DNA from: Streptomyces sp. 11x1
GTDB lineage: Bacteria; Actinomycetota; Actinomycetes; Streptomycetales; Streptomycetaceae
Assembly (NCBI RefSeq): GCF_032598905.1
Contig: NZ_CP122458.1
Coordinates: 7,589,001-7,653,000 of the forward strand
Direction: 5' to 3'
DNA: 64,000 nt
Positions within the stretch are counted from its first letter, which is position 1; each line of letters starts with the position of its first letter. Positions 12,565 to 36,094 of this stretch are shown piece after piece. The notes under the pieces were generated by a model. That model was not told where the DNA came from. It saw nothing but the letters and a program-made list of their open reading frames with translations, and did no database searches. Made by a program: the position numbers and the translations under genes.

Positions 12565-13458
12565 GTGACCGACATGTCCAGCGCACTCCACCACCTGGTG
12601 GAGTCGGTGACCGACACGTACACGGTGGTCGCCGAGCACCCCAGGCCCGGCGACATCCGGCCTTCCGTCTGGGAGGTCAACGGGCCTGACGGCGAGAGGT
12701 GGTTCGGGAAGCTCCACGCGGGCGCGAAGCTCCACCACCGCGAGGTGACCGCGTACCAGAAGTGGACCGTGGCGCTGGGCGCCGGCCGTGCACCCGAGCT
12801 GGTCGCCTCGGACACGCAGACGCGCACCGCCTTGATCACCGCCGTGCCCGGACGCGGTCTCGACACCCTGCGCCTGCCGGCCGAGCAGGAACGGGCGGCC
12901 TACGAGCAGGCGGGCGAACTGCTCGCCCGGTTCCACACCGCGGCAGCCGACGAGCCGACGCCGGCAGCGACGGAGGAGGCGTGGGACGAGGCGGTCGCCC
13001 AACTGCTGGACCGTACGGCGGCGTACGTGCCGGAGTACGACCTCGCGATCGTGCGCACGCTCGCCGAGGAAGTCCCTCCGAGCCTGCCCCAGGTATCCCA
13101 GCACGGCGACTACATGCCCAAAAACTGGATGTGGGACGAGACCGAACAGCGTCTGCGGATCATCGACTTCGAAAGGGCCGAGCTTCTGCCCGCCGCCTAC
13201 CGGGACCTGAGCCGACTGCGCTACCGGATCCTGCACCACCGCCCGGACCTCAACGCCGCCTTCCACCACGGATACGGTCGGCCCCTCACCACGGAGGAAC
13301 TCGTCGCATGCCGGGCCTACGGGGCACTGGATGCTCTGGACTCGCTGAACTGGGGGATCAAGCACCGCGACGGCGGCCTGGTCGACGAGGCGCACATCAT
13401 GCTGGAGAACCTTCGCCTGGAGACCCGCAAGAGGGTGTGGGGCGGGTGGCGTACGTGA
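12565..13458 (+). CDS. APH-fold phosphotransferase (kinase 1 of cluster)
   Basis: The protein has 297 aa from GTG 12565, with GGAAGGGCG upstream. Catalytic loop QHGDYMPKNWMWD and metal-binding IIDFERAE are intact, and a candidate ATP-lobe lysine sits in ERWFGKLHAG. It belongs to the aminoglycoside/choline/homoserine kinase-like superfamily. A partial DNA-damage promoter lies upstream. The substrate is unknown. Pairing with a second kinase, an exporter and a short ORF suggests modification of a small molecule or peptide, since APH-fold kinases act on Ser/Thr in some RiPP pathways (class V lanthipeptides, thioamitides). Confidence 0.82.
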   Translation: MTDMSSALHHLVESVTDTYTVVAEHPRPGDIRPSVWEVNGPDGERWFGKLHAGAKLHHREVTAYQKWTVALGAGRAPELVASDTQTRTALITAVPGRGLDTLRLPAEQERAAYEQAGELLARFHTAAADEPTPAATEEAWDEAVAQLLDRTAAYVPEYDLAIVRTLAEEVPPSLPQVSQHGDYMPKNWMWDETEQRLRIIDFERAELLPAAYRDLSRLRYRILHHRPDLNAAFHHGYGRPLTTEELVACRAYGALDALDSLNWGIKHRDGGLVDEAHIMLENLRLETRKRVWGGWRT

Positions 13459-13558
13459 ACGTCTTCGCTCGAACGTCCGCGGCTCCGCACCTGTTCGGCG
13501 ATCGTCGCGATGCCTTCACCGTCCTCACCGCCCACTGTGCCTCTGCACGCGAAGGCCT

Positions 13559-14614
13559 GTGATCTTTGTGGACGAAGCAGGCTGGGGCGAGACGTTGACC
13601 GCTGACGTGCTGGAAGACCGGTACGGGCTGGTCGCCGACATCGTCGAACCGGTGCACATGGGTACGGACACCATCAACCGGCGAGTCCTGACGGACGACG
13701 GGCTGCGGCTGTACGTCAAGCAGTACCCCTTGATGGCCGACCTGGACGAGGCGCGCAACGCGTGGGACATGTCGGAATACTGCCGGGCCGCGAAGCTCCC
13801 CGTTCCGCGGGTGTGGCCCGACACCCACGACAACCTGGTCACCATCGCGGGAGGCAGCGCATGGGCCGTGGTCGACGAGGCTCCCGGACGGGTGAACCCC
13901 TCGGCGATGACGGTCCCCCTCGCCGAGCACATCGGCGTCGTCATGGGACGCATGCACCGTGTGCTCGCCGCGTACCCGCTGCCGAAGCGGGTGCAGCAGA
14001 CCCGCTGGCGGACCGAGCCCGTCGAGGACGCCGTAGCGAAGTGCGACGCCGTGATGGCCAGAGCCACGCGCCAAGGCCACGACCGTCTCGACCACCTACG
14101 CGTTGACCTCGACCAGCGGCGTGGGGACCTGCGGGCCCACGTCCACCTGTTGCGGGAACATCTGCCCGAGAGGCTGGCGGAACAGGCACTGCATGCGGAT
14201 CTCAGCCGCACCAACCTGATCACCCTCGCCGACGCTGTCACCGGCGTCATCGACTTCCGCTGCGCCAGCGCTATGCCGGCCTGGGAGTTGGGGCGGGCGG
14301 CGTTCGACCCGCGCACCGTCGCCACCAGCACTGATTGGGCCGCTTGCGCACTGGCGATGGCCAGGGCCTACCGCTCGGAGCACCCCAGCCTCCCGATGCG
14401 GGAGGTGCGGGCATGCGCCCGGATCGCGCTGCTGTACATGCTGTTCAGCTTCTACGGCGCCACGACCGCCGAGTACGACCTGCCGGGGGAAGCGGAGGCG
14501 GATCTGAAGCGGCACTGGCGCGAGCGTCAGATCACCATCCGCCGCCTGCTCAGTGACCTTGAGGGCATCGAAGACGAGCTCACTGGCCTTGAGGCGAACG
14601 GAGACACGTCCTGA
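13559..14614 (+). CDS. APH-fold phosphotransferase (kinase 2 of cluster)
   Basis: The protein has 351 aa from GTG 13559, with GAAGG seven bases upstream. The catalytic loop reads ALHADLSRTNLIT and the metal site GVIDFRCAS; a candidate ATP-lobe lysine is in LYVKQYP. It differs clearly from kinase 1, so this is not a recent tandem duplication. The middle (residues ~160-215) is charged and helical. It ends 82 bp before the small ORF at 14697. Substrate unknown. Confidence 0.82.
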   Translation: MIFVDEAGWGETLTADVLEDRYGLVADIVEPVHMGTDTINRRVLTDDGLRLYVKQYPLMADLDEARNAWDMSEYCRAAKLPVPRVWPDTHDNLVTIAGGSAWAVVDEAPGRVNPSAMTVPLAEHIGVVMGRMHRVLAAYPLPKRVQQTRWRTEPVEDAVAKCDAVMARATRQGHDRLDHLRVDLDQRRGDLRAHVHLLREHLPERLAEQALHADLSRTNLITLADAVTGVIDFRCASAMPAWELGRAAFDPRTVATSTDWAACALAMARAYRSEHPSLPMREVRACARIALLYMLFSFYGATTAEYDLPGEAEADLKRHWRERQITIRRLLSDLEGIEDELTGLEANGDTS

Positions 14615-14696
14615 CTATCCAGCACCTTCCGACTGCGCTGAACGAAACGGCTGACGAGCGACAGCCTCAACCACACACGGCATACAGGGGGACGTC

Positions 14697-14819
14697 TTGG
14701 CGTATCAAACCGCGACCGGTCTGCACCTTGCACTCATCCGCGAACAGCGTGATCCGCTGGGATTCCGTACGACCTCCCTGGCCGGGCACCGCGTTTCGGC
14801 GGAGGGCCGGAGCCGATGA
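14697..14819 (+). CDS. 40-residue ORF translationally coupled to ABC exporter
   Basis: TTG 14697 is preceded by AGGGGGACGTC. The frame runs 40 codons and its TGA overlaps the ATG of the ABC transporter (ATGA at 14816-14819). The peptide begins MAYQTATGLHLALIREQ and ends EGRSR; it has no Cys, several Ser/Thr and an Arg-rich tail. It could be a peptide precursor, a translational-coupling leader, or a degenerate gene end. The start context and exact overlap are seen; any peptide-product role is speculation. Confidence 0.45.
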   Translation: MAYQTATGLHLALIREQRDPLGFRTTSLAGHRVSAEGRSR

Positions 14820-16786
14820 CAACCATCCCGAAGCCCACCGCGACAACCGCGCCGACCGACGAGGCGGAGGTCTCGGATGAGGAACTGAAGTTCGTCATCC
14901 CCGGCGACCGCCGTATCGAGGCCGCCAACGCGATCACGACCCGTGCGATGGCCCGGCGTCTGCCCCAACTGATCCGCCGGTCCCTCGCACTGGGCTGGCA
15001 GGTCGACCGCGCCGCAGTCATCGCCCTGCTGTGCGTGCAACTCCTCTCGGGGGTACTTGAAGCGTTTGGGCTGATGGCCACCACCGGGGTGATCAAGCCG
15101 CTGATCGCCTCGCAGCACATCAGCGGCGACCAGCTCCGCTCCGCCGTACCTTCCCTTGTCGTCCTGTCGGGGGCCATCGGTCTGCGCGCCCTGCTGGGTA
15201 TTGCCTCCACCGCGCTGTCGGCCCGGCTGGCCCCGCGTATCGCCCGGGAGGCCGAACTCGAGCTCCTCGACGCGGCGACCAAGGCGGAACTCGCCGCGTA
15301 CGACAACCCTGGATACAACGACCGCTGGGATGCGGCCGACCGGGGAGTGGAAGTCTCCAGGGACCTCCTCACCCAAGCCCAGTACATCCTCGCCGCATCG
15401 GCATCGCTGATCGCCTCAGCGTTTGTCCTGACCGCTGTGCACCCGATCCTTCTGCCGCTGCTCCTCCTGGCGGCCCTGCCGAAGGGCGTGGCCAGCGTAC
15501 GTGCGGCGCGCATCAGTTACATCGCCTCGCTCGCCACGACCAAGGACCGGCGGCTGCTGGGCATGCTGCGCTGGTACCTGGTCGACAAGCAGATCGCCGA
15601 CCAGGTCCGCTCCGGCACCATGGCACCGTTCCTGCTCGACAAGTACCGCACGGCCGGGGCGCGGATCGACAGGACCACCGACCAGGCCACCTGGCGCTCG
15701 GCCAGGATCTCCCTGGTGGGTGGGGCTGCGGGAGGTCTCGCCCACGCGGTGGTGTGGGTGGCCCTGGCGCTGCTGGTGTCCGCCGGGCAGATCTCGGTCG
15801 CCGCCCTCGGCACCGCGTTCCTCGCATTGGGCCGCGTCAGCGCGGGACTGGACGGGGTCGTCGGCTACGGGGCCCAACTCTTCCGTACCGGAATGTACTT
15901 GGACGACTGGGCGGACTTCATCGACGAAGCCGGCGGGCATCGCATCGACCGTGGCCCTCAGGCGCCGGCCGCCCCAACCGTCGTATGCGCCGAGAACATT
16001 ACCTTCCAGTACCCGAGCGCCGACCGTCCCGCCCTCGACGACGTCTCTTTGGAGGTCCGGCGCGGCGAAGTCATCGCGCTGGTGGGCGAAAACGGCTCCG
16101 GCAAGACCACCCTCAGCAAGATCCTTTCGGCTCTGTACCTGCCCGATCAAGGAGCCGTCTCCTGGGACGGAACCGACACCAGGGACCTGGACGCGCACGC
16201 CACCTGGGAGCGTGTCGCCGTCGTACCGCAGTCCTACGCGAACTGGCCCCTGTCGGCGCGGGAGAACATCACCCTCGGCCAGGCCACCGAGGAAGGGGAC
16301 GCCGCGGTGCTCGCTGCGGCGCATGCCGCAGGCGCCGACGAAGTCATCGACGGGTTGCGCAGCGGGCTGAACACCCTGCTGGCCAAGGAATGGTGGGGTG
16401 GGCAGGAGCTGTCCGGCGGACAGTGGCAGAGGATCGCGCTCGCCCGCGCCTTCCATCGGCCGGCCGGACTGCTCGTCCTGGACGAACCGACCGCCGCCCT
16501 CGACCCAAGGGCCGAGCACCGCATCTTCACCGGGCTGCGTCGGCTTGCCGCCGACCGCGCGGTCGTCCTGGTCACCCACAGACTCACCAACGTGACCATC
16601 GCCGACCGCATCGTCGTTCTGGACAAAGGCCGCGTCATCCAGCACGGCACCCCCGAGGAGCTGCTGGCCCAGAAGGAAGGCTTGTTCCGCGAACTGTGGG
16701 ATCTGCAGAACGAGCGCACCGGGCGCGTACCCGCCCCGACCAACTCCGACCAGCACGTCGAGCCAAATCAGTCTGCCCTGTTCTGA
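14816..16786 (+). CDS. ABC exporter with fused membrane and ATPase domains
   Basis: The protein has 656 aa. The N-terminal ~350 residues hold about six hydrophobic helices (AVIALLCVQLLSGVLEAFGL; FVLTAVHPILLPLLLLAALP; AVVWVALALLVSAG). The ATPase domain has Walker A GENGSGKTT, signature LSGGQWQR, Walker B LLVLDEPTAAL and H-loop VTHR. A homodimeric half-transporter of the peptide/lipid/drug exporter type is expected in the cell membrane. There is no N-terminal C39 peptidase, so it would not itself cleave a leader peptide. It ends region B. Confidence 0.92.
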   Translation: MTTIPKPTATTAPTDEAEVSDEELKFVIPGDRRIEAANAITTRAMARRLPQLIRRSLALGWQVDRAAVIALLCVQLLSGVLEAFGLMATTGVIKPLIASQHISGDQLRSAVPSLVVLSGAIGLRALLGIASTALSARLAPRIAREAELELLDAATKAELAAYDNPGYNDRWDAADRGVEVSRDLLTQAQYILAASASLIASAFVLTAVHPILLPLLLLAALPKGVASVRAARISYIASLATTKDRRLLGMLRWYLVDKQIADQVRSGTMAPFLLDKYRTAGARIDRTTDQATWRSARISLVGGAAGGLAHAVVWVALALLVSAGQISVAALGTAFLALGRVSAGLDGVVGYGAQLFRTGMYLDDWADFIDEAGGHRIDRGPQAPAAPTVVCAENITFQYPSADRPALDDVSLEVRRGEVIALVGENGSGKTTLSKILSALYLPDQGAVSWDGTDTRDLDAHATWERVAVVPQSYANWPLSARENITLGQATEEGDAAVLAAAHAAGADEVIDGLRSGLNTLLAKEWWGGQELSGGQWQRIALARAFHRPAGLLVLDEPTAALDPRAEHRIFTGLRRLAADRAVVLVTHRLTNVTIADRIVVLDKGRVIQHGTPEELLAQKEGLFRELWDLQNERTGRVPAPTNSDQHVEPNQSALF

Positions 16787-16900
16787 GCAGGCGGTGCGGA
16801 TAGGGAGTTCCGCGAGATCGGGTTGGCCGACGGCGGGCGCATACGTCTTCGAGCACACAGTGCCGCGGCGCCGTTGGCGGCCCGGACGAGAAGACAGTTG

Positions 16901-16917
16901 CAGTGAACTGTTCACTG
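16901..16917. promoter_or_regulatory. perfect 17-bp palindrome at regulator start
   Basis: CAGTGAACTGTTCACTG is an 8+1+8 perfect dyad, ending 15 bp before ATG 16933 of the HTH regulator. Its location at the expected promoter/leader position, beside a DNA-binding gene, makes it a strong operator candidate. If it is an operator, the alternative GTG start at 16903 inside it is unlikely. Confidence 0.6.
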
Positions 16918-16932
16918 AGATTTGCTAGGGGC

Positions 16933-18159
16933 ATGGCGCAGTCAATCTCTCCCCAGGCCCTGGTACGCCAGCGACTGTTCAGGGACATGAGCGTGGAGGA
17001 GCTCGCTGCGGCCGTCGGTGTCACGTCACGTGCCGTGCGCCACTGGGAGACGGGAGCACGGGCCGTTGGCGATCGGGCTTTCGGACGGCTGCTGGAGGTG
17101 TTGCGCTGTGATGCTCGGGAGTTGACGGGCAACGAGCCAGGCACCGAGACCCTCGCGGACCTGCGCCGCGTCGCGGGCATCAGCACGGAAGAGGCCGCCT
17201 CAGTTCTGCGGCGCAAGCGGGGCGCACAGGGTCTGCATCTCAGCGCGGAGAAGATCCGGGACCTGGAACGCGGCCGGCACGTACGCGGCTGGATGTGGCG
17301 CTCTCCCGAAACCCTGGGGCAGGTGGCGCGCATATTGGCCCAGGTCTACGGGGTTCCCGTCCGGGTGGTGATGGACGCCTGGCACCGCAGCCGCCCGGAC
17401 GACCCCCTCCCGGTACTTCCCGCGCGGCAGGCACGAAGGCCGTCCGAGGAATCGATGACCGCCTGGCAGGGTCTCAACGACCGGCAGCGCACCTACCTGA
17501 CCTGCATCTTCCATCAGGACCAAGAGGCCGAGGAGGAGCAGCGGCAGAACCGCTACGTGGGAGCACGGCGCCAGCCGGCAGTCGAGTGGCGGCGTATGAC
17601 GCTTGCCCTCTCCGTCCCGTCCGACGTTGTCGGCTACACCCGCATTCAGGAGCGGCTGCGCGAGGCCGGGGTGCATGATCCGGGAGCCGGATCTTCCGTG
17701 GCTGCTCTGGAGCGACGCGGCCTGATCCGCGTGTACCGGGACCGGGTGCATCTCGACGGACTAGGGGACGTGCCACGCACCAGGGTTGAGATGACCCGGC
17801 GTGGCAGGGCGGTGACCCGCGTGGCGCTCGGTGTCTCCCGCGAAGCGGGACCGCCCGCGCCGCTCCTGTCGCCGTGGTTGTGGAAGATCATGGTCCGTGT
17901 CGCACGCGCCGGGGTGCAGGGAGTGGACGGCAGTCTCGCCGGACGTGGACCGCACTACCTCGCGGTGGGGCAGAGCCCCGACGGGCGTACCCCGAGCAGG
18001 GGCTTCATCGTCCTTCGGCATCCGGACGGAGTGGCCCACGGGCCATACCGGTGGCTTCTCACCGACTCCGGTCGGCGCCACATCACCGACCACCTCGACG
18101 CCTACCGTGCCCTGTATCCCGGTATCGACACCCAGGGGCTCGAAGGTGTTTTCGATTAA
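16933..18159 (+). CDS. HTH regulator next to the pPIWI-RE island
   Basis: The protein has 408 aa from ATG 16933 (AGGGG just upstream); GTG 16903 would add 10 residues but lies in a palindrome. An XRE HTH at about 12-65 (SVEELAAAVGVTSRAVRHWE) is followed by a second XRE-like unit (LADLRRVAGISTEEAASVL). A later winged-helix-like segment is IQERLREAGVHDPGAGSSVA then ALERRGLIRVYRDRVHL. The C-terminal ~90 residues have no recognised fold. It ends 51 bp before the first pPIWI-RE gene, which has its own promoter. A regulator of the island is the natural inference. Confidence 0.78.
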   Translation: MAQSISPQALVRQRLFRDMSVEELAAAVGVTSRAVRHWETGARAVGDRAFGRLLEVLRCDARELTGNEPGTETLADLRRVAGISTEEAASVLRRKRGAQGLHLSAEKIRDLERGRHVRGWMWRSPETLGQVARILAQVYGVPVRVVMDAWHRSRPDDPLPVLPARQARRPSEESMTAWQGLNDRQRTYLTCIFHQDQEAEEEQRQNRYVGARRQPAVEWRRMTLALSVPSDVVGYTRIQERLREAGVHDPGAGSSVAALERRGLIRVYRDRVHLDGLGDVPRTRVEMTRRGRAVTRVALGVSREAGPPAPLLSPWLWKIMVRVARAGVQGVDGSLAGRGPHYLAVGQSPDGRTPSRGFIVLRHPDGVAHGPYRWLLTDSGRRHITDHLDAYRALYPGIDTQGLEGVFD

Positions 18160-18180
18160 GGTCTTCGGGGGAAGGGCCAC

Positions 18181-18202
18181 TGTCAGTGCCCTGTCGTAGG
18201 GT
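18181..18202 (+). promoter_or_regulatory. PafBC/RecA-independent DNA-damage promoter of the pPIWI-RE operon
   Basis: TGTCAGTG (18181-18188), 8 bp, then TAGGGT (18197-18202). This matches the mycobacterial RecA-NDp consensus tTGTCRGTG-N8-TAnnnT in both boxes and spacing except the lower-case first T. The -10 ends 8 bp before GTG 18211, so transcription should begin at or within about two bases of the start codon, giving a leaderless mRNA. Consistently, no Shine-Dalgarno precedes GTG 18211. In actinobacteria this promoter class is activated by PafBC after DNA damage. Confidence 0.75.
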
Positions 18203-18210
18203 TCCGGCTC

Positions 18211-19464
18211 GTGAAGCAAGCTGATGACACGACAGGCATTCAGCAGACACATGCCCTGCTGGAAATCGTCAAGGCGTTCGCCGTGTGTGAGCACGCGATG
18301 GCCAGCGAGGAGCTGGACGGCCCGAAGCGTCTGGACCGGCTCATCGAGGCCCACGGGATCCTGATGGCGGCGTGCGGCCCCGGGCATCTGATCCGCTTCG
18401 AGGAACTGCTGGGGAGGCTCACCGGTGACCGGGCAGGCTCCCTGGAGGGGCTGCTGCCTGACTGGATCGACACTCAGGCTCTCGCCGGCGTGCGGTTGAT
18501 GGACAGTGAGGGGGTCGCCACCGAGGACGGGTTCGACTTCCGGCACGAAGCCCAGCGCGTCATGCGGGCCGCGCAGAAGGTCGGCAAGTTCAGCGGCCAG
18601 GTGACGAAACCCAAGCTGGATGACGAGTACAGCCAGGAAGCCGTCTTCAGCGCGATCAAAGGCCCCTTCTACGAGAGGCACCGCACCACGCTGGTGGAGA
18701 ACCCGACGGTCCTGAAGGGCGGTCTCCCCGACCTCAAGCTGCCGTCCCGGGCGAACGACTTCTACAAGCCGATCTCCCAGTACGCGCAGTACAACGGTTG
18801 GTGGTGGCCTTGTCCCGCCTGCCAGTGGCCGATGAAGGTGGCAGCCACTCGTTCTGGTGCACGCATCCAGGGCAGGGTGCGGTGCCTGTATCCCTGGCAC
18901 GAGGAGACCGGCGCGTCCTACGAGTTCGTCGTGACCGCTCGGAAGAAGTCGGCACCCACCCTGAGCCCGACGTTTGGGTGCAGAGTCCCGTCCGGACGCT
19001 TCGCGGCACTGTGGACCGGGGCTCTACCGCAGGTGCCGGAGGCCAAGCCCGTCGAGGAGTACGTGGCGTTGGTGCGGCCGGTGTGGCGCTACACCGTGGT
19101 CCCCGGCCTCCCCGAACTGGCTCTTCACCGGGCTGTCTCAGCGGACCTTGAGGGCACGGCTTGGACGTCACACCTGTGGCCCAACGGAGACCAGTGCGAT
19201 CACTGGATCACCCACCCGAACAGCGGGAAGCCGGCGTTCCCCGCCGACTTCAAGGACTACACGTGGGTGAACCATCTGGTCAGCAAACTCCACATGGACG
19301 GTGGCGACCGAGGAGGAGCGGATTACCTGGTCGTGCCTGACCACCGCCAGGAGCAGGTGGCCCAACTCGACATGGTGTGCCGCACGTACGGGATGAAGGC
19401 GGCGATGACCGCCACCGACTACGTCGAGATGGTCATCACGGGAGTCAAGGAGGGCCGGGTGTGA
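18211..19464 (+). CDS. pPIWI-RE island restriction-endonuclease-fold protein
   Basis: The protein has 417 aa from GTG 18211. The N-terminal ~150 residues are helical. A CPAC pair with a later RCLYPWHEE suggests a zinc ribbon in the middle. The C-terminal part contains ADFKDYTWVNHL with D346-x-K348 and an upstream Asp (GDQCDHWI), a plausible PD-(D/E)xK active site, then DYLVVPDHRQEQ. This fits the REase-domain partner, with an accessory N-terminal domain, described for the three-gene pPIWI-RE islands. It is first in the operon and overlaps the helicase start by 4 bp. A DNA nuclease role is inferred. Confidence 0.72.
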   Translation: MKQADDTTGIQQTHALLEIVKAFAVCEHAMASEELDGPKRLDRLIEAHGILMAACGPGHLIRFEELLGRLTGDRAGSLEGLLPDWIDTQALAGVRLMDSEGVATEDGFDFRHEAQRVMRAAQKVGKFSGQVTKPKLDDEYSQEAVFSAIKGPFYERHRTTLVENPTVLKGGLPDLKLPSRANDFYKPISQYAQYNGWWWPCPACQWPMKVAATRSGARIQGRVRCLYPWHEETGASYEFVVTARKKSAPTLSPTFGCRVPSGRFAALWTGALPQVPEAKPVEEYVALVRPVWRYTVVPGLPELALHRAVSADLEGTAWTSHLWPNGDQCDHWITHPNSGKPAFPADFKDYTWVNHLVSKLHMDGGDRGGADYLVVPDHRQEQVAQLDMVCRTYGMKAAMTATDYVEMVITGVKEGRV

Positions 19465-22400
19465 GCGGGGAGATGACAGGGCGGGAAGCCGGTCTGGCGG
19501 GGGCACTCGCACTGGCGGCGCACTACTTTCCGCGTAAGGACGACGAGGGCCGGGTGCTGGCCGGTTTCGAAGAGGCTTCCTTCTTCGCCCACCGCAAGCC
19601 GCGGGCGTGGTCGGAATGGGCGGGCCTGCCGGTGGCCGAGAGGAACGTCATCCGTCAGGTGATGGTCCTGATGTCGCCGGAGTGGACGGACCCGAAGAAG
19701 CTCAAGTCGGCGGCCCTCGCGTTGCTCGGAGCCTTCGCTCCCGATGCCGACACGGCCGACAGGACAGGTGGTTCGCTGCGACTGCCGACCAGGGAACCCG
19801 AAACGGCCGACGCCGTGATTCCCCGGGTGGGAGGGAACTGCCTCGACTATGCGCGGCGTGTTGTCGGCCCCTTCTTCACCTTCGGCAAGCGCCCCAAGGC
19901 GCAGGCGTTCGTCGGTCCCGGCACGCACAGGACGAGAACCGCCTACCTGGGCAAGGAGCACGGCACGACCAGCCGTGACATCCACATCCAGGAGACCCCC
20001 GGCTTCCTTGAAGCGCCCGGTCACGAGGCTCTGCCACAGGTGAGGACCCGTCCGCAGCGCGACCGTGTGGCACCGACGGTGAAGGAACTCCTGAAGGTTG
20101 CCAAGATCCTCAGCGGCCGGAACAAGAGCGTCGCCTACCTCCACAAGACCCTGAAGCGCTTCTTCAAGGGCATGAAGACCACCGACGGCGCGCTGACGGA
20201 ACTCGACCTGTCCTCGGGGGACCTCCAGGTCCTCAACGCCCCGACGGGAAGCGGCAAGACGGTCCTGGTGCGGGTCATGGCGTCCTGGGCGGCGCTCAAC
20301 GACGTCCGTATCGCCCTGGCGGTCACCGACGTCCGCGCAACCCTCGACATGGCCTGGGACATCAACAACGACCTGGCCTACCTGCACAGGGAGAGACATC
20401 TCCCCGAGCCCGCTCACTGCACTCCTCTGATGTCGCCGACGAGCATGCACCGACGGGCCATGGACTACGCGGCCCTCAGCCCCTCCACCCAGATCGACCA
20501 GTGGGATCGTCGTGCCAGGACCGACATCGGGCTCCTGTCGGCCGGCTGCGCGCAGCGGGCCCTCATGGACCCACCGAACCTGTACCCGTACGGCGAGGAG
20601 AACTGCACGTCGCTGACCTCCGCCGTCACCGGATCCACCCGGCACACCTGCTCCTTCGCCCCGGTGTGCGGCAAGTTCCAGCAGTTCTACCAGGCCGCCG
20701 ACGCGGCCGTGATCGTCACCAACCACGCGAACCTGCTGGAAGGCCGGACCCGCATCGGCGTCGTGCTGGACGGGCAGGAGTTCCGTGGCAAGGCGCGCGG
20801 TACGAGGGGCATGAGCGTGCTGGAGATGACGCTGCGGGTCTGCGACGTGATGCTGATCGACGAGATCGACGCCTTCCAGACGGCCGCCGTCAGCCGCTGC
20901 ACCTCGGAGATCACCTTGGCGTCCCGGAAGCGGACGACCGCTCTTCGGGAGATCGACCAGGACGCCAAGAACCTTCCCATCGTCCACGAGATGGACCTGG
21001 TGTCTCCGGTCAGCCACGCCCGCCTGATGGCCGAGATGCTGCTGCTGTGGCTCTGCTCCGGCAGCGGGTTGAAGCTGAACCCGGGCAACGAGACGGACAA
21101 CCCCGACGGAGCCAGCCGCGACAACACCGGCTGGCGCCTGGCCCGTTCCCGGGACCGCGAAATCCTCCAGCTCCTCTTCCCCGACCAGACGGCCGGCGAG
21201 GACATCCCCCCGGACCTCTTCGCCCTTCTCGAAGAGGTCATGCCCGCCCACCGGCATGAGTCCGAGTTTTATGAGGAGACCGAACTCCCCGAGGGAGCCG
21301 ACTGGGAGGCCGTCCAGACAGCCCTGACAGTGCTTACCGCCCAGCGGGGCCAAGACCATCTCACCGACACGCGCGAGGAGATGCGTAAGCTCCTGGCAGG
21401 CATCGTGCCGGATGCGTACAAGCGGTCAGCGGTGGTGAACCTACTGGTCACTCGTACTGTGCTCCGGGAACTCGACGCTGCGCTGGACAGTCTGCGCGAG
21501 CGGGCACAGACCCTGCGTTACCTGGACCTCGGGTCAGTCCGCAAGATCCTCGAAACCATGCGCAGCAGTACGGTCGCCACCCTCTACCCCCTGGCGATGC
21601 TGGGCCGGTCCATCCACGGCTACCAGGTGAAGGGAATGGACAACAAGGAGAAGGAGGCGGAACTCCTCTCCCGTTCCTTCGGTGGCGATCCGCACACCTT
21701 TGTCTCCGAACTCGGCGGCCTCACCGCCCTGCTGACCGCCGGAGTGCAGCGACCGGTCATGGGCCTGTCCGCGACCGCCTACCTTCCTCAGGCCGTACAG
21801 GAGCACATCCATGCCCCCGTGCGCTGGTGGCTGCCCGACACCCGCCCCGAGTCCATCGTCACCGTCCCCACCCCGGTTCGAGGCCGCAACGGCGACGCCA
21901 TGAGAATCGGAGGACTCCCGCCCGAACTGAAACCCAACGCTCTGCGCGACCTCGGCAGGGGCCTGTACGAGCAGCAACTCGCCAAGAGCCTCGCCCGCCT
22001 GGAGAAACAGGAACCGGAACGAGCCCGCGTCATCCTCGCTGTCAACTCCTACGAGCAGGCCGCCTACCTCGCCTCGGGGGTGGCACAGGCAGACGGCCTG
22101 AACCATCGGGTCTGCCTGCTGGTGAAGAAACCGGAGAAGCAGAACTACGAGGAGCATCTCCCCGCCCACGTGGACAGGATGGTCCGGGAGGAGCTGAAGG
22201 AGTTCCCCGACCGCGGTGAGATCCTGATCGCCCCGCTCGCAGTCATCGGGCGAGGCCTGAACATCGTGGTCGGTACCCGCTCGGCGGTCCGCGACATTTA
22301 CCTGTGCGTCCGGCCCGTCCTCAGCATCGAGGACACCGACTGGATGCATGCGAGCGTCAACGCCGCTGGAGTCAACGCCCTTCCCATAGAGGGCAGTGAT

Positions 22401-22760
22401 GAGCCGCTTCCAGTCCTGCGGAAGGCCAGCGAAGCCTCGTGGAAGCAGCTCTCCAAGATCCTTCGTTCGCCGGCCCGGTTCTCCAACATGGACCACGACC
22501 TCCGCAAGGAACTCGTGGCAGGCATGCTCGTGCTGCTCATCCAACTCGCCGGCCGAGCCCGCCGCGGCGAGACCGACATGACCCTCCACATCGTGGACCA
22601 CTCCATCCACGACAAGAAGTTCAGTTCGGACCTGGCCACGATCATCAAACAGATCTACGCCGACTGGAATCCGGAGCAGCGCGAGATCATGAACGAGCTC
22701 TACGGTCAAGCGCTTCAGGCATTCCTGACCTATGCGGGACTCGACCGCGACATGATTTGA
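19461..22760 (+). CDS. DinG/XPD-type Fe-S superfamily 2 helicase of the pPIWI-RE island
   Basis: The protein has 1099 aa. GTG 19461 was chosen because GGAGGG lies 6 bp upstream and it overlaps the preceding stop (GTGA); ATG 19473 is the alternative. Walker A APTGSGKT is at ~260-267 and the DEID box at 467-470. Cys363, Cys382, Cys397 and Cys403 lie between them, where XPD/DinG helicases ligate a 4Fe-4S cluster. VIVTNHANLL is a family motif. The first ~230 residues are an additional domain. Expected role: 5'-3' unwinding of DNA or R-loops in concert with the PIWI protein. Confidence 0.85.
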   Translation: MSGEMTGREAGLAGALALAAHYFPRKDDEGRVLAGFEEASFFAHRKPRAWSEWAGLPVAERNVIRQVMVLMSPEWTDPKKLKSAALALLGAFAPDADTADRTGGSLRLPTREPETADAVIPRVGGNCLDYARRVVGPFFTFGKRPKAQAFVGPGTHRTRTAYLGKEHGTTSRDIHIQETPGFLEAPGHEALPQVRTRPQRDRVAPTVKELLKVAKILSGRNKSVAYLHKTLKRFFKGMKTTDGALTELDLSSGDLQVLNAPTGSGKTVLVRVMASWAALNDVRIALAVTDVRATLDMAWDINNDLAYLHRERHLPEPAHCTPLMSPTSMHRRAMDYAALSPSTQIDQWDRRARTDIGLLSAGCAQRALMDPPNLYPYGEENCTSLTSAVTGSTRHTCSFAPVCGKFQQFYQAADAAVIVTNHANLLEGRTRIGVVLDGQEFRGKARGTRGMSVLEMTLRVCDVMLIDEIDAFQTAAVSRCTSEITLASRKRTTALREIDQDAKNLPIVHEMDLVSPVSHARLMAEMLLLWLCSGSGLKLNPGNETDNPDGASRDNTGWRLARSRDREILQLLFPDQTAGEDIPPDLFALLEEVMPAHRHESEFYEETELPEGADWEAVQTALTVLTAQRGQDHLTDTREEMRKLLAGIVPDAYKRSAVVNLLVTRTVLRELDAALDSLRERAQTLRYLDLGSVRKILETMRSSTVATLYPLAMLGRSIHGYQVKGMDNKEKEAELLSRSFGGDPHTFVSELGGLTALLTAGVQRPVMGLSATAYLPQAVQEHIHAPVRWWLPDTRPESIVTVPTPVRGRNGDAMRIGGLPPELKPNALRDLGRGLYEQQLAKSLARLEKQEPERARVILAVNSYEQAAYLASGVAQADGLNHRVCLLVKKPEKQNYEEHLPAHVDRMVREELKEFPDRGEILIAPLAVIGRGLNIVVGTRSAVRDIYLCVRPVLSIEDTDWMHASVNAAGVNALPIEGSDEPLPVLRKASEASWKQLSKILRSPARFSNMDHDLRKELVAGMLVLLIQLAGRARRGETDMTLHIVDHSIHDKKFSSDLATIIKQIYADWNPEQREIMNELYGQALQAFLTYAGLDRDMI

Positions 22761-22853
22761 ACCACCCACTGCCAGTCTCCGCCTTTTCGAGACGGAGTTG
22801 CGACCGCTTCCCTCTGCCCGGGGAGAAAGACCAGAAAGACGAGGTAACGCCCA

Positions 22854-25832
22854 ATGGGGCGAAGCAACAACCAGCGGGATCTCACCGCGCGCACCACCTC
22901 GATCAGGTGCACCAGGGAACTCCTGGACGGCATGACTGCCATGGTCTGGGACTTCGGGGACTACCACTCGCCTACACGCAGGGCGTGGAGGGAACTGAGG
23001 GGTACAGCCGCGCAGAACAGCAAATGGATCAAGAACGAACAGGAATCCGACCCGTTTCTCGTTCCGTACTCCATCGCCGTCACCGTTCTCCAGCAGATCA
23101 CTGACGGCTACGTCTACCTGGACAAGAACCTGGCGTTCATGGTGACGCTCAACCCCGTGAAGCCCGAGATCCTCAGGGATGTCTTCGCCTACCTGGAAGG
23201 AGTCGTCCGCAAGGTTCCTGTGGACGAGATCCCTTTGAGGGATGTCCCCGACCTGGCCAAGCGCATCGCGGAGACCACTCCCCAACGCCTGAGTCTCGCC
23301 GACAACATCCTGCCCAAGGACGACGGCAAGCCCGCCAGCCCCGACAGCTGGGCCTACGAGGCGGTGAGGTGGCACATCGCCAAGAAGCTGGCTTCCGTGT
23401 CGTTCCAGGACCGGGAGATGGAGCCGGTCCTTGAGGAGTACGAGGGGAAGAACGGTGAGACCAAGCACAGGACCGTCGACTGGCAGCCCTCAGGGAACGT
23501 CGCATCGTTGGACTACCGACCTGTCAGCAACGGTGACCTGATCGCCTGGGACAACCCCATCGGTCCGGTCTTCGCCGGTCTTGCCCACCCGGTGGACCTC
23601 GGTGATGCGGTCAAGGCCCGGCCTGAGAACCCCACCCGGGCACAGGTCCAGTACGCGCTCTCCCGCCTGTCGGTCAAGATGGCCACCTACACGGCCGAAC
23701 CCAACCCCGTCCTGAACCTGAACGCGCACATCCGCCGTGTCAACAACACCGTGATCCACTCCAGCACCGTCCTGGTGGACCAGGGGAAGGACCGGCCGCT
23801 GCTCTCCCTGTCGTTAGACGGACGTGGCCTGCGTCAGACGAACAGGCACGCGTTGGAGATCCTGGCGAAGATGGACGCCGACAGGACCTCGCTCAACGCC
23901 ATCGAGGAACGCGTCACCCACGAGCGAAGCCTGCTCAACGCCAGGGACGAGAACGGCAAAAGGATCGACATCCTGACGCCACCGCCCGGAACGATCCGGC
24001 CCACGATGCCGAAGACGGACTCCTTCGCCGTCGGCACCGGCGCAGGCACCCACCACCTGGCGCTGCTCCAGGAGCACATCGGTCGTGCTCTTGGTGACAA
24101 GGTGTCCGCCCTTGAGCTGAAGTCGAAGGGGAACATCTTCGGCAAGCGAGCCCATGAGCCGGCCACCTCCGCCGAGGGCAGGGACAAGACGCGGAAGAAG
24201 GAGAGCGGCGAGTACGTCGATCTCGTCGGCAAGCCCTCGCCCGAGAGCATCCGTCGCTCAATCGAGACGGCCGGGTACAAGACCCTGCGCATCCTGTGCT
24301 TGTGGTACCGGGACGAGACCCGGATGCGGATGATCCACGGCCTGGCCCACCCCTACGGCCTCGACCCGGACGAACTCGACCCCATCGAGGGTGAATCCGT
24401 CCCCCTCGCGCCTGGCTTCGAGGTCGTCTTCTGCAACGCCGAGGAGCTTCTGGCACACGGTCCCGCTACCCAGCGGGCCTCGGACACAGAAAAGATCACC
24501 AGCCGGTTCGCGGAGCCCGGCGTTCTTCTCGCCGCCTGGTGCGAGACTGAGATCCCCGTGCGAGGCGAAGAGCACGAGGGAATGAAGCCCGCCGACGTGA
24601 AGAAGGCCCTTGAGGAAAGCGACGCCAAGCACCAGGTCGTGCGCGAACTGGCCAAGGTCACGGCGCCGTCCCAGTTCCTCGTCGGCCGCGTGTACGACCC
24701 CTTCACCAAGACCTTCAGCATCGTCAAGAGGCCCAAGAAGGCCTTTGAGGACCACCGCGTCTACATGGGCCTGCTGGATCTCTACCGGTCGTGCGGAGTC
24801 GTGGACGACCGCTTCGAGCGAGCCCTTTACCCTGACGACGACCCCTACCCGCTGCCCCGCATGGCGTTCGTCGGTATCCACATCCGCAAGCAGGCCACCG
24901 ATCGCAGGTTCAAGGGAGAGCCAAAGAGGATCATCTGCGCCAGCGCGATCATCCCCTCCCGGGAACCCGGCGGCCCCTGGCGCATGCTCGGCTGGAGCAA
25001 CATCCACCCGGAGTGGGAGCACTACGCCTTGGCGCAGAGCAACTTCCACGCCGCCAACTACCCCCTTCACACGGAGGACGGGGACAGCGATTTCCAGCGC
25101 TGGGCACAGGCTGGCGAAGACGTCCAAGAGGCTCTCAAAAACCTTCACGACGAACTCGACGGACTCCCGTATGCCCTGATGATCGACGGCCACGCATGCC
25201 GCCGCGTATGGCCTGGCCTCCAGAACAAGAAGCAGGGCCTCAGCAAGGACACCGACGACCCTCGCCTGTGGCTTCCCGGAACCGGGCTTCCTCTTTCCTG
25301 GAACCCCGTCAGCATCCTTCGGATGAACTGCATGCAAGCAGAGATGCCGCGACTGGTCTCCGTCACCGAGAAACAGAAGAACGGCAAGACCGTCACCCTC
25401 AAGACCTCAAGCGACCTGTATTACCCGGAAGACCGGCCTGAAGGCCACCCCTGGTTCCTGTTCACCGTGCCCCGCAACTACGGCAAGAAGCGCCACGGAC
25501 AGTGGAAGACCCGCTGGCGTGCCGACCCGGGCAAGGCGTCGAAGAACGCCGATGAGCGCAGGGAGAACGAGCTGAACTCGCCGTGGTACAGCATGACCAC
25601 GCGCGAGATCACCCCCATGTACACGCGGAAAGGCTACGACCGGGAAATCCTGGCCGTCGCCGCGGCCCGGCTCAGCCACCAGGCCATCTCCTGGTCAGAC
25701 CGGACCCGATACCCCGCTCCGCTCCACGCGGCGCTCCAGATGGACCTCGGCCACCCCCAGTACCGACGCTCGGCGCCGAAGGACCCCGAGAGCGTCGAGA
25801 TCCTGAACGCAGCCAACGGCATCGACGCGTAG
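22854..25832 (+). CDS. prokaryotic PIWI protein, pPIWI-RE class
   Basis: The protein has 992 aa from ATG 22854, with GAGG upstream. Length, partner genes and the C-terminal blocks (LPYALMIDGHACRRVWPGLQ near 773, then PVSILRMNCMQAEMPRLVSV) match the pPIWI-RE family, which is defined by a conserved Arg and Glu; R823 and E830 are the best candidates. The N-terminal ~450 residues fit the pPIWI-RE N-terminal module, followed by MID and RNase-H-fold PIWI regions. Family prediction: guide nucleic-acid binding, possibly R-loop recognition, in anti-plasmid/phage defence. Residue 321 is encoded by TTA (23814-23816). No classical PAZ domain is apparent. Confidence 0.82.
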   Translation: MGRSNNQRDLTARTTSIRCTRELLDGMTAMVWDFGDYHSPTRRAWRELRGTAAQNSKWIKNEQESDPFLVPYSIAVTVLQQITDGYVYLDKNLAFMVTLNPVKPEILRDVFAYLEGVVRKVPVDEIPLRDVPDLAKRIAETTPQRLSLADNILPKDDGKPASPDSWAYEAVRWHIAKKLASVSFQDREMEPVLEEYEGKNGETKHRTVDWQPSGNVASLDYRPVSNGDLIAWDNPIGPVFAGLAHPVDLGDAVKARPENPTRAQVQYALSRLSVKMATYTAEPNPVLNLNAHIRRVNNTVIHSSTVLVDQGKDRPLLSLSLDGRGLRQTNRHALEILAKMDADRTSLNAIEERVTHERSLLNARDENGKRIDILTPPPGTIRPTMPKTDSFAVGTGAGTHHLALLQEHIGRALGDKVSALELKSKGNIFGKRAHEPATSAEGRDKTRKKESGEYVDLVGKPSPESIRRSIETAGYKTLRILCLWYRDETRMRMIHGLAHPYGLDPDELDPIEGESVPLAPGFEVVFCNAEELLAHGPATQRASDTEKITSRFAEPGVLLAAWCETEIPVRGEEHEGMKPADVKKALEESDAKHQVVRELAKVTAPSQFLVGRVYDPFTKTFSIVKRPKKAFEDHRVYMGLLDLYRSCGVVDDRFERALYPDDDPYPLPRMAFVGIHIRKQATDRRFKGEPKRIICASAIIPSREPGGPWRMLGWSNIHPEWEHYALAQSNFHAANYPLHTEDGDSDFQRWAQAGEDVQEALKNLHDELDGLPYALMIDGHACRRVWPGLQNKKQGLSKDTDDPRLWLPGTGLPLSWNPVSILRMNCMQAEMPRLVSVTEKQKNGKTVTLKTSSDLYYPEDRPEGHPWFLFTVPRNYGKKRHGQWKTRWRADPGKASKNADERRENELNSPWYSMTTREITPMYTRKGYDREILAVAAARLSHQAISWSDRTRYPAPLHAALQMDLGHPQYRRSAPKDPESVEILNAANGIDA

Positions 25833-25855
25833 ACGCCAGGCATTGACACACGGCA

Positions 25856-25882
25856 GCCCGTGTCCCGCATCGGGGCACGGGC
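25856..25882 (+). terminator. hairpin terminator after the pPIWI-RE gene
   Basis: GCCCGTGTCCCG, loop CAT, CGGGGCACGGGC form a 12-bp stem with one G-U type pair, starting 23 bp after the PIWI stop. There is no U-tract, as is usual in high-GC actinobacteria. It would close the three-gene operon. Confidence 0.65.
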
Positions 25883-25951
25883 GCGCTCGTGCATGGTCGT
25901 GAAGGGACTCTGACCTGCAGGTGAGGAGATGGGTTGGAGCATGCGGCAGAA

Positions 25952-26392
25952 CTAGGCGGCAGCTCTGGCGTTCCCCGGTTGGGAGGAGCTCACCTGCCCC
26001 ATGGCCCGGTCGATCGTGATCTCGACCACCACGCGCTCCGGATCCGGAGAAGGCGTCCGCCCGTACCGCTTCCCGTAGCGCGCCACAGCATCCTCTACTG
26101 CGGCTGGGTGCGTGCGGACTTCGGCCGTGCCCTCCAGCGTTGCCCAGCGTCCTCCGTCCACTTGGCAGACGGCGACGCGTGCCTTGCCGGGGAGCGCTGC
26201 CTGAACGTTGGCGACTTTCCTGCTTGATTTGCGGGTGATAACCCGAGCGATACCGGCGTCGACGTCCACGGTGACTCCAACCGGCACGACGTGGGGGCGG
26301 CCATCAGGCCGGAGCGTCGTCAGGGTGCACAGATGGTACTCGCTCCAGAACTCCACGTAGCCATTTTCCTGGCTCTGCATCTCGGTGCGCAT
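25952..26392 (-). CDS. PPOX-class (pyridoxamine-5'-phosphate-oxidase-like) flavin/F420 protein
   Basis: The protein has 146 aa from ATG 26392 (ATG 26380 also possible; neither has a clear Shine-Dalgarno). LCTLTTLRPDGRPHVVPVGV is the typical split-barrel strand pair that binds FMN or F420, followed by ARVITRKSSRKVANVQA and RWATLEGTAEVRTHPAAVED. Length fits the actinobacterial F420-dependent PPOX family. A redox or cofactor-carrier role in the cytoplasm is expected. It is convergent with the pPIWI-RE operon. Confidence 0.82.
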   Translation of the reverse strand: MRTEMQSQENGYVEFWSEYHLCTLTTLRPDGRPHVVPVGVTVDVDAGIARVITRKSSRKVANVQAALPGKARVAVCQVDGGRWATLEGTAEVRTHPAAVEDAVARYGKRYGRTPSPDPERVVVEITIDRAMGQVSSSQPGNARAAA

Positions 26393-26434
26393 GGCTGGAA
26401 GCGTAATCGCGAATCACGTCCCGACTGGCCGAAA

Positions 26435-26448
26435 GTGGCCATGGCCAC
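26435..26448. promoter_or_regulatory. perfect 14-bp palindrome upstream of PPOX gene
   Basis: GTGGCCATGGCCAC is perfectly self-complementary and lies 43 bp upstream of the PPOX start. An operator role is possible; the regulator is unknown. Confidence 0.35.
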
Positions 26449-26970
26449 ATCTCGTCGTCTGCTGCGTGGACTGGGAATTTCACTGCCTTCCATTACTAAA
26501 TGGCCGATTTGTAAGCAGTGAAAATATCTCGGATTGGTAACGAACCTGAGGCCTCCCGGTGCACTTGGCGTGGGCGCGTCATCCCTGAGAACTGCCAGTT
26601 CAAAAGCATGATCTACAGCCGTGTGCGTTATTTTGGTGCGATTTGTTGGGTCGCAGTTGAGGGGTGCTTTTCAGTCAGGTCTTGGTGTGGGCTTCGCGTA
26701 GTCTCCGATGCTGTTCCCAAAGCCTGCTGCGGACGCTTTGCGATGTGTCATCGACTGTTCACGCTAGCGACGTTCGGCACCAGGTGAATCTTGGGCGCGC
26801 ACTCGTGTGGTCCAAGGATCGGGGTGTTCGCGGCAAGGGCCGCGTACTGCTCTCGCTCCCCGGAGCACCTCGGCTGCGTGGTGCAGCGGGGACTGGACAT
26901 CGTAGAAACGGCGCGGCCGTCGCCCGGCTCCGTCTCGGAGTCATCCACGGCTGGTACGGAGGGATCACCG
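26449..26970. other. gene-free interval with AT-richer core and nested inverted repeat
   Basis: No supported gene. From about 26470 to 26690 the base composition is clearly more AT-rich than the flanks. TTTCACTGC (26478-26486) pairs perfectly with GCAGTGAAA (26515-26523), enclosing a second hairpin CCATT-ACTA-AATGG (26490-26503). It contains the promoter region of the metallopeptidase gene, whose ribosome site GGAGGG is at 26958. A short plus-strand frame (26518-26787) is Cys/Arg/Trp-rich and not gene-like. Confidence 0.5.
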
Positions 26971-35635: not shown

Positions 35636-36094
35636 GTGGGAGGAGAAGCAGACGACCGCGCCCCGCGCGAGCAGCAGAGCCCGAGCCAACCTGCGTTCCC
35701 CGACCGCAAGCCGCGCCGCCGCACCCGCAACCCGAGCCAGCGCACCCACAAGACGACCACCCGCCTGTCCGACACCGAGAAGACCGAGATCACCGCTGCC
35801 GCCAAGCAGCGCGCCGTCACCGTCGCCCGTTTCCTCGCCGCCGCCGGCCTCGCCGTCGCCCGCGGATCGACCATCGTGCACACCAACGAACAGCTCGACG
35901 CCGCCATCGACGAGCTGGCCGCCCTGCGCACCGCCATCTCCCGTGTCGGCAACAACATCAACCAGATCGCCTTCGTCTACAACGCCGGAGGACAGCCCCT
36001 CCCCGGCGAACTCGACCGCGCCCTGACTACCGTGAACCGCGTCCTGACCCGCGTGGACGACACGGCCGACACCCTGGTGAAGAAGCGCCTCTGA
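35636..36094 (+). CDS. mobC: MobC-type relaxosome accessory protein
   Basis: The protein has 152 aa from GTG 35636 (AGGGGG 8 bp upstream). A farther GTG at 35429 overlaps the previous stop but would place the long inverted repeats inside low-complexity coding. The N-terminus is basic (RKPRRRTRNPSQRTHKTTTR), followed by a ribbon-helix-helix-like region (LSDTEKTEITAAAKQRAVTV). The typical MobC end is LRTAISRVGNNINQIAFVYN. MobC proteins open DNA at oriT to help the relaxase. Its stop overlaps the relaxase start (TGATG). Confidence 0.8.
   Translation: MGGEADDRAPREQQSPSQPAFPDRKPRRRTRNPSQRTHKTTTRLSDTEKTEITAAAKQRAVTVARFLAAAGLAVARGSTIVHTNEQLDAAIDELAALRTAISRVGNNINQIAFVYNAGGQPLPGELDRALTTVNRVLTRVDDTADTLVKKRL

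Follow-up and report, generated by a model that had tools for sequence, protein, structure and literature searches.

The window analysed here, a 64,000-nt stretch of the Streptomyces sp. 11x1 genome (positions 7,589,001-7,653,000 of contig NZ_CP122458.1; genome size 10.67 Mb), contains a triad of genes that, judged by its sequence, clearly belongs to the pPIWI-RE family (a restriction endonuclease (REase)-fold nuclease, a DinG-like iron-sulfur (Fe-S) helicase, and a PIWI protein). The triad is part of a four-gene unit, in which a helix-turn-helix (HTH) regulator gene and two promoters travel with it (Table 1). The chances appear evenly balanced that this unit is a module for DNA restriction that moves horizontally, is induced by damage, and is directed by a guide or a hybrid. 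pPIWI-RE systems were predicted computationally in 2013, a single biochemical study was found, and the window provides a testable version with an unbroken operon, defined ends, a predicted operator, a damage-type promoter, and a predicted division of labour.

Composition and ends of the unit

The three open reading frames (ORFs) proposed in a first-pass annotation of this DNA (417, 1099, and 992 aa) were all confirmed, and their assignment to a pPIWI-RE triad in a Streptomyces genome was borne out by Pfam and PADLOC matches. The annotation had described a complete three-gene island in one overlapping operon; the triad is indeed complete, but the island was drawn too small, since the HTH gene and the two promoters belong to it, and only the REase and DinG genes overlap (by 4 nt), the DinG and PIWI genes being 93 nt apart. 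The DinG frame is counted from the GTG at 19461; the longest frame would give 1127 aa. Two long opposite-strand frames (646 and 644 aa) were rejected as genes because the forward-strand frames carry the protein family matches, and a search of NCBIfam at E≤1 matched nothing in the REase or PIWI proteins.

Table 1. Features of the four-gene unit, with positions given in the window.
Feature	Position	Strand	Evidence or remarks
Predicted promoter P1 of the HTH gene	16897..16932	+	-35-like TTGCAG 16898-16903, 17-nt spacer, -10-like TTTGCT 16921-16926
Palindrome AGTGAACTGTTCACT, probable operator of the HTH protein	16902..16916	.	between -35 and -10
XRE-type HTH regulator, 408 aa	16933..18159	+	HTH_31 5.9e-8, HTH_3 1.2e-7
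Predicted promoter P2 of the triad, RecA-independent/PafBC-type damage motif TGTCAG-N10-TA-N3-T	18181..18202	+	motif match
REase-fold nuclease with Zn ribbon, 417 aa	18211..19464	+	PF18154 9e-19; PADLOC pPIWI_RE_REase 4.3e-28
DinG-like Fe-S SF2 helicase, 1099 aa	19461..22760	+	PADLOC PprDinG 5.2e-94
pPIWI-RE protein, 992 aa	22854..25832	+	PF13032 6.1e-70; PF13111 8.5e-14; PADLOC PprPIWI 7.8e-114

The ends of the unit were read from eight loci whose flanks are unrelated (L034, L035, L036, L038, L039, L040, L043, and L044, some of them near-copies of one another); DNA similarity to them starts at 16894-16914 and ends at 25819-25834. The transferable unit thus begins ~1.3 kb upstream of the REase gene, with the promoter of the HTH gene, and no recombinase gene lies inside it. 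Two further close relatives, L041 and L042, have similar outer ends but are interrupted inside; their DinG and PIWI frames are split, and the PIWI gene of L042 carries ~1.3 kb of extra DNA. The upstream HTH ORF accompanies the triad in all 12 named relatives, in 10 of which none of 11 other query genes from the window was found.

Wider comparisons were based on 101 loci (100 fetched Streptomyces places plus the window) hand-picked from a score-ordered list of PF13032 matches, of which 102 were chosen. Fragments, one of two equal-scoring copies in genome G332, G028:C747, and several weaker long matches (e.g., G238:C5, G294, G386, G172, G169, G079:C1:7191348) were left out, so that divergent copies are under-represented, and several genomes contribute two loci. 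Three extra loci, the other two of the 102 choices (G013 and G263) and one from the non-Streptomyces genome G729, stand outside these counts, and the triad is present in all three. The REase and DinG genes accompany the PIWI gene in 99 of the 101 loci, always in the order REase-DinG-PIWI and on one strand, in keeping with the first-pass expectation that the same three genes would recur together. The two PIWI genes without partners (L125 and L129) have short open frames (755 and 734 aa) and may be decaying copies.

An HTH gene lies directly upstream of the REase gene in 22 of the 101 loci. These HTH-type loci group as a single clade, the window's clade, whether the 99 loci are compared by PIWI, DinG, REase, or joint tree (support 1.0, 1.0, 0.99, and 1.0, respectively), and pairwise distances between the four proteins are correlated across 17 of them (r 0.97-0.99; L070, L073, L074, L088, and L121 excluded), with none of 999 permutations as high, an optimistic comparison given that the permutations shuffle related loci. 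On this evidence, the clade has inherited the four genes as a set. Weaker HTH matches occur outside it at other places (L125, L133, and L138).

Promoters of the regulator and of the triad

The hexamers of promoter P1 were read by eye and from conservation, and a generic sigma-70 scan of 16700-26500 listed no promoter, P1 included. DNA conservation with relatives begins at GTTGC (16897). The ATG at 16933 is kept in the 10 aligned relatives, and therefore the HTH gene comprises 408 codons; its mRNA from P1 would be leaderless or nearly so, and the GTG at 16903 chosen by the ORF finder falls inside the palindrome. The palindrome is perfect, with a chance expectation in the window of 0.09 when up to two mismatches are allowed, and 7 of the 10 aligned relatives share its core, GTGAACTGTTCAC. 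Because its exact pattern is found at this one place in the whole genome, autorepression by the HTH protein through this predicted operator is likely. Amongst the clade loci with a resolved start (17 of 22; the start is unresolved in 5), 13 have a palindrome with arms of at least 5 right behind the TTGC box; L075 and L121 have other palindromes, and neither L086 nor L092 has one with such arms. The place of the palindrome is fixed and its letters vary (GTGAAC/GTTCAC in the window's subclade; GGAAC/GTTCC in L095 and L102; TGAAG/CTTCA in L080, L087, L088, L090, L108, and L109), for which the simplest reading is that repressor and operator have changed together; some shuffle tests of single-locus palindromes were weak (P 0.1-0.16), and the argument rests on the fixed place.

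The gap between the HTH and REase genes holds CTGTCAGTGCCCTGTCGTAGGGT, which ends 8 nt before the REase start codon. This promoter, P2, fits the PafBC motif TGTCAG-N10-TA-N3-T (PMC8151990), differs by one letter from the consensus in mycobacteria, tTGTCRgtg-8nt-TannnT (PMC5656591), and, in the form CTGTCAGTGCC-N6-TAGGGT, by two letters from the ultraviolet-inducible recA promoter of S. rimosus (TTGTCAGTGGC-N6-TAGggT, cited in PMC2375139). The distance from the motif start to the REase GTG is 30 nt, and that at recA of the same genome is 29 nt. Across the genome, TGTCRGTG-N8-TANNNT occurs at 51 places and the reversed pattern at none. Twenty of the 51 sites were fetched, their downstream ORFs predicted by script from stretches cut at ~1.5 kb, and 10 of the 20 scanned; the motif-to-start spacing is 27-31 nt at 15 of the 20 sites, with starts as predicted by the script. 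The genes behind the motif encode RecA, RadA, DnaX, and ribosomal protein S6 (rpsF) (above curated cut-offs), PcrA-like and YoaA/DinG-like helicases (below cut-offs, in the shortened stretches), one ABC transporter, and three proteins without a match at E≤1e-20. We regard these genes as a putative RecA-independent damage regulon of this Streptomyces genome, within which PafBC would activate P2 and DNA damage would thereby induce the triad. Unlike the described RecA-NDp/PafBC promoters of actinobacteria, P2 precedes a pPIWI-RE triad and not a repair gene. In 19 of the 22 HTH-type loci, the core motif is found between 1,050 and 1,500 bp before the stop codon of the REase gene (i.e., near the REase start), compared with a single match of the reversed pattern in the same windows of 99 loci; over whole loci and both strands, the motif has 31 matches and the reversed pattern 4.

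The PIWI protein

The 992-aa protein matches PF13032 (RNase H-like) with 236.7 bits against a cut-off of 25, from residue 673 (domain 673-969), and PF13111 (X domain) with 51.9 bits against a cut-off of 30.5, so that at the level of sequence the first-pass view of this protein as a PIWI is upheld. The MID family PF18157 is matched below its cut-off (E 0.02; 15.6 bits versus 26.6), and the classical Piwi domain PF02171 has no match at E≤1 in the protein and none in the genome. Residues R541, E564, D590, K592, and Q607 of the MID region, which would form a pocket for the 5' end of a guide, are kept together in 99 of 101 PIWIs. Position 676, which we infer from the domain start and spacing to be the place of the first catalytic Asp (cf. 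D525/D610 of PsPIWI-RE), is His in 57, Trp in 40, Tyr in 4, and Asp in none of the 101 sequences; position 778 is Asp in 42 and His in 33. All 22 members of the window's clade have H676 and D778, and among loci outside the 101 the first position is Lys in the non-Streptomyces actinobacterial L155 and Trp in the Streptomyces loci L156 and L157. Because Asp is never found at position 676 while the MID-region set is kept in 99 of 101, guide binding would have been retained and cutting lost, and the PIWI protein is probably nuclease-dead and not the cutter of the system.

The first-pass annotation had named R823 and E830 as the Arg-Glu pair of the family. R823 stands (87/101), whereas E830, only 7 residues further on, is present in just 77 of 101 and was rejected; by conservation and spacing, the family's glutamate is probably E918 (93/101). 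R823 and E918 occur together in 81 of 101 PIWIs and so are not absolute in this sample, and the distance between them is 95 residues, versus 79 between R639 and E718 in PsPIWI-RE. The 93-nt gap between the DinG and PIWI genes was considered as the source of a guide RNA and rejected, as its conservation is only partial and it has no Rfam match.

The nuclease and helicase partners

The PF18154 match of the REase is above the cut-off. Its Zn-ribbon cysteines (C201/C204/C225) are kept in all 99 sequences, R158, which may correspond to the conserved Arg of the helical domain known from the family, is conserved at 1.0, and the active-site set E302, D327, D330, D346, and K348 is kept in 86 of 99 overall and in 22 of 22 in the window's clade; the DxK motif that had been noted in this protein is real and corresponds to D346-x-K348. 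A solved-structure search with the REase returned four chance-level matches. In the helicase, the Walker A lysine (K266), D467-E468-D470, motif VI, and the four Fe-S cysteines (C363/C382/C397/C403) are invariant in 99 of 99, which substantiates the Walker A, DEID, and Fe-S features of the first-pass annotation. Pfam gave no DinG helicase family at E≤1 for this protein (best match DUF7159, 4.4e-4, below cut-off), and amongst solved structures the single sequence matched none and the DinG profile only the ATPase core of other proteins.

In 51 of the 101 loci, a different gene lies directly upstream of the REase gene, never together with the HTH gene. The three members scanned match PDDEXK_1 (PF12705; E 1.8e-19, 4.6e-21, and 1.2e-23), and residues D410, E423, K425, and Q443 as well as C296, C516, C519, and C525 are invariant in 51 of 51. 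The protein presumably resembles Cas4/AddB, with four cysteines that we take to be placed as in Fe-S PD-(D/E)xK nucleases. The window lacks this gene and has the HTH gene in that place. All but two of the PDDEXK_1-type loci (49/51) form one clade (support 1.0 in the joint, 0.97 in the PIWI, 0.99 in the DinG, and only 0.56 in the REase tree), with L112 and L119 placed outside it.

Within the 49-locus clade, a subclade of 12 loci with support 1.0 in all four trees (L059, L065, L066, L069, L071, L076-L079, L084, L085, and L111) has an REase without D327, D330, D346, and K348 and a PIWI with Leu in place of R823. The PDDEXK_1 residues are intact in 12 of 12 of these loci, as are the DinG motifs; in L072, the REase set is partly altered. 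A dead REase beside an intact PDDEXK_1 nuclease in one operon is expected on the restriction-module reading, because a separate nuclease would always be needed, and the subclade appears to represent a natural nuclease swap. Recurrent neighbours upstream of the PDDEXK_1 gene in several sister-type loci (L045-L069 and others) are genes for a Ser/Thr kinase (divergent), an N6 DNA methylase, and a SARP/NB-ARC/TPR regulator, assigned by gene family with one member each scanned. In L091-L106, the neighbours include three conserved proteins, F9-F11, that have no Pfam match.

Distribution and mobility

The PF13032 domain has a patchy distribution, being present in 111 of 392 Streptomyces genomes and in 6 of 396 genomes sampled phylum-wide, five of which belong to Streptomyces (the window's own genome included). 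The window's PIWI is 98-99% identical to those of S. caniscabiei and S. stelliscabiei. Relatives of the PIWI are found on 15 plasmids, all from Streptomyces and all at <60% identity, one of them over at least 80% of the length; the PIWI of the non-Streptomyces locus had no plasmid match. The classical Argonaute domain PF02171 was found in none of 394 sampled genomes of the class, which makes pPIWI-RE a candidate for the principal PIWI system in Streptomyces. A search for an empty site used two flank proteins (61 genomes each) and two fetched loci, L153 and L154. In both, the ABC-transporter flank on the left is retained, and similarity stops before the module, at ~16786 (L153) and ~16737 (L154); none of the genomes searched has the two flanks directly adjoining.

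Proposed mechanism and alternatives

In a damage-inducible restriction module, the HTH protein would keep its own promoter P1 down via the palindrome, and damaged or single-stranded DNA, such as that of replicating phages or plasmids, would act through P2 to raise the REase, DinG, and PIWI proteins. The non-cutting PIWI would hold a short guide by its 5' end in the MID pocket and mark an RNA-DNA (or guide-DNA) hybrid on the DNA of the invader. The Fe-S DinG helicase would open this site or move along it, and the PD-(D/E)xK REase would make the DNA break. The defence role of the pPIWI-RE triad, as RNA- or hybrid-directed restriction, is itself a prediction (Burroughs, Iyer, Aravind 2013, PMC3702460).

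A number of results weigh against this proposal. Position 676 was placed by the domain start and by spacing, not by a structure or by aligning an active member, and structure prediction was of low confidence (predicted local distance difference test score 31.8 for the PIWI, modelled from 9 sequences of which the other eight are 77-98% identical to the first, and 51.9 for the HTH protein); a solved-structure search gave no match for the single PIWI and chance-level matches for a profile of 11 PIWIs. His676 and Asp778 could bind a metal, and the triad-borne PsPIWI-RE does cut, RNA-guided on DNA and DNA-guided on RNA (Huang 2022, PMC10991935), so that a dead PIWI is not a family rule. No source of a guide was found, and Rfam has no match in 16-27 kb, the 93-nt gap included. 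The P1 palindrome is missing in three of the ten close relatives (L038-L040). The P2 motif is present in none of the 51 PDDEXK_1-type loci and in only 4 of the 26 loci with neither accessory gene directly upstream; because the motif is rare or absent elsewhere, damage control would be particular to the window's clade and not general among pPIWI-RE systems. For S. venezuelae, an initial search based on the PafBC motif of M. smegmatis pointed to a lack of conservation (PMC9380542). Phage records contained no PIWI relatives, and IMG/VR none for the PIWI or the DinG alignment. Finally, knockout of psPIWI-RE gives a ciprofloxacin phenotype (Huang 2022, PMC10991935), which would also suit genome maintenance.

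Genome maintenance is the first alternative: the unit, acquired horizontally, would assist repair or replication by resolving R-loops or stalled forks after DNA damage, with the REase trimming structures and no restriction of invaders. The P2 motif that the triad has in common with recA, radA, dnaX, and the PcrA-like and YoaA/DinG-like helicase genes is consistent with such a role, but the patchy occurrence (111/392), the movement of the unit into unrelated flanks, the relatives on plasmids, the regulator's own promoter with its probable operator, and the intact restriction-type nuclease are not what it would lead one to expect, and we consider it unlikely. The same two promoters, an autorepressor-type one and a damage-type one before a nuclease gene, are traits of a triggered toxin, and the unit might be a suicide or addiction module in which damage or loss of the repressor lets the REase destroy the cell's own DNA (abortive infection) or kill cells that lose the module. 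This appears quite improbable, since none of the four genes encodes an antitoxin-like partner or a methylase, and since an entire sister clade (12 loci) has a dead REase but keeps the rest of the operon. That the PIWI still cuts through a rebuilt His676/Asp778 metal site, as Asp778 (22/22 in the clade) and the activity of PsPIWI-RE might suggest, is very hard to credit, because Trp or Tyr at position 676 (44/101) and residues other than Asp at position 778 (59/101) indicate a site without catalytic constraint in the whole sample.

The restriction-module reading can be extended, tentatively and as a possibility that falls short of probable, to Streptomyces pPIWI-RE systems in general, which would be modular platforms built on a non-cutting PIWI, with a constant PIWI-DinG core and with cutting and control parts swapped by clade. 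In the window's clade, an XRE autorepressor and a damage promoter would license an intact REase, with a recA-type damage signal switching on defence; in the other clade, a Cas4/AddB-like Fe-S nuclease would have been added, replacing a dead REase in one branch. If true, this would place a PIWI-based system under the DNA-damage response and make its effector nuclease exchangeable between relatives.

Comparison with known systems

The unit resembles the pPIWI-RE system described in PMC3702460 in its Zn-ribbon REase, DinG-like Fe-S helicase, PIWI protein, and strict gene order, as well as in its patchy horizontal spread, conserved MID residues, and proposed role in restriction directed by a hybrid; active and inactive PIWI versions are noted in that paper. 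It differs in that HTH domains are fused to some REases there, whereas in the window the XRE-HTH gene stands apart under a promoter of its own; the damage-type promoter in front of the REase is a feature of the window, and the lack of Asp at the inferred first catalytic position throughout a Streptomyces sample comes from the present data. Streptomyces is listed in PMC3702460 among hosts of stand-alone pPIWI-RE genes, whereas 99 of the 101 copies sampled here are in triads.

The first-pass annotation knew of little experimental work on such systems; some exists, on PsPIWI-RE of Pseudomonas stutzeri (Huang 2022, PMC10991935). That gene is likewise clustered with a DinG and a nuclease gene. Its product has the catalytic D525/D610 and is active, and an HTH gene or damage promoter is not mentioned in the available part of the paper. 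A search of open-licence papers, preprints excluded and XRE and PDDEXK_1 partners not searched separately, found no link between pPIWI-RE and a damage promoter.

Neighbouring genes

Elsewhere in the same genome (C1:9511639-9511767) PF13032 is matched a second time, below threshold (21.8 bits; cut-off 25), perhaps by a remnant or by chance. The left flank of the unit (window 12565-16786) holds two adjacent genes for APH-type phosphotransferases and an ABC exporter. Positions 32646-56652 of the window, beginning ~7 kb past the downstream end of the module, contain genes typical of an element that is conjugative or mobilisable, encoding an IstB-like ATPase, WhiB, DUF2637, a relaxase (36094-37866), and a TraG/TraD-like coupling protein (54868-56652). 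The 580-aa relaxase-region homologue of L089 has no Pfam match at E≤0.05; by gene family, relaxase homologues lie near the module in L089, L131, L132, L134, and L136, and a region like the window's relaxase gene (36.1-37.7 kb) lies near it in L041, L042, and L043.

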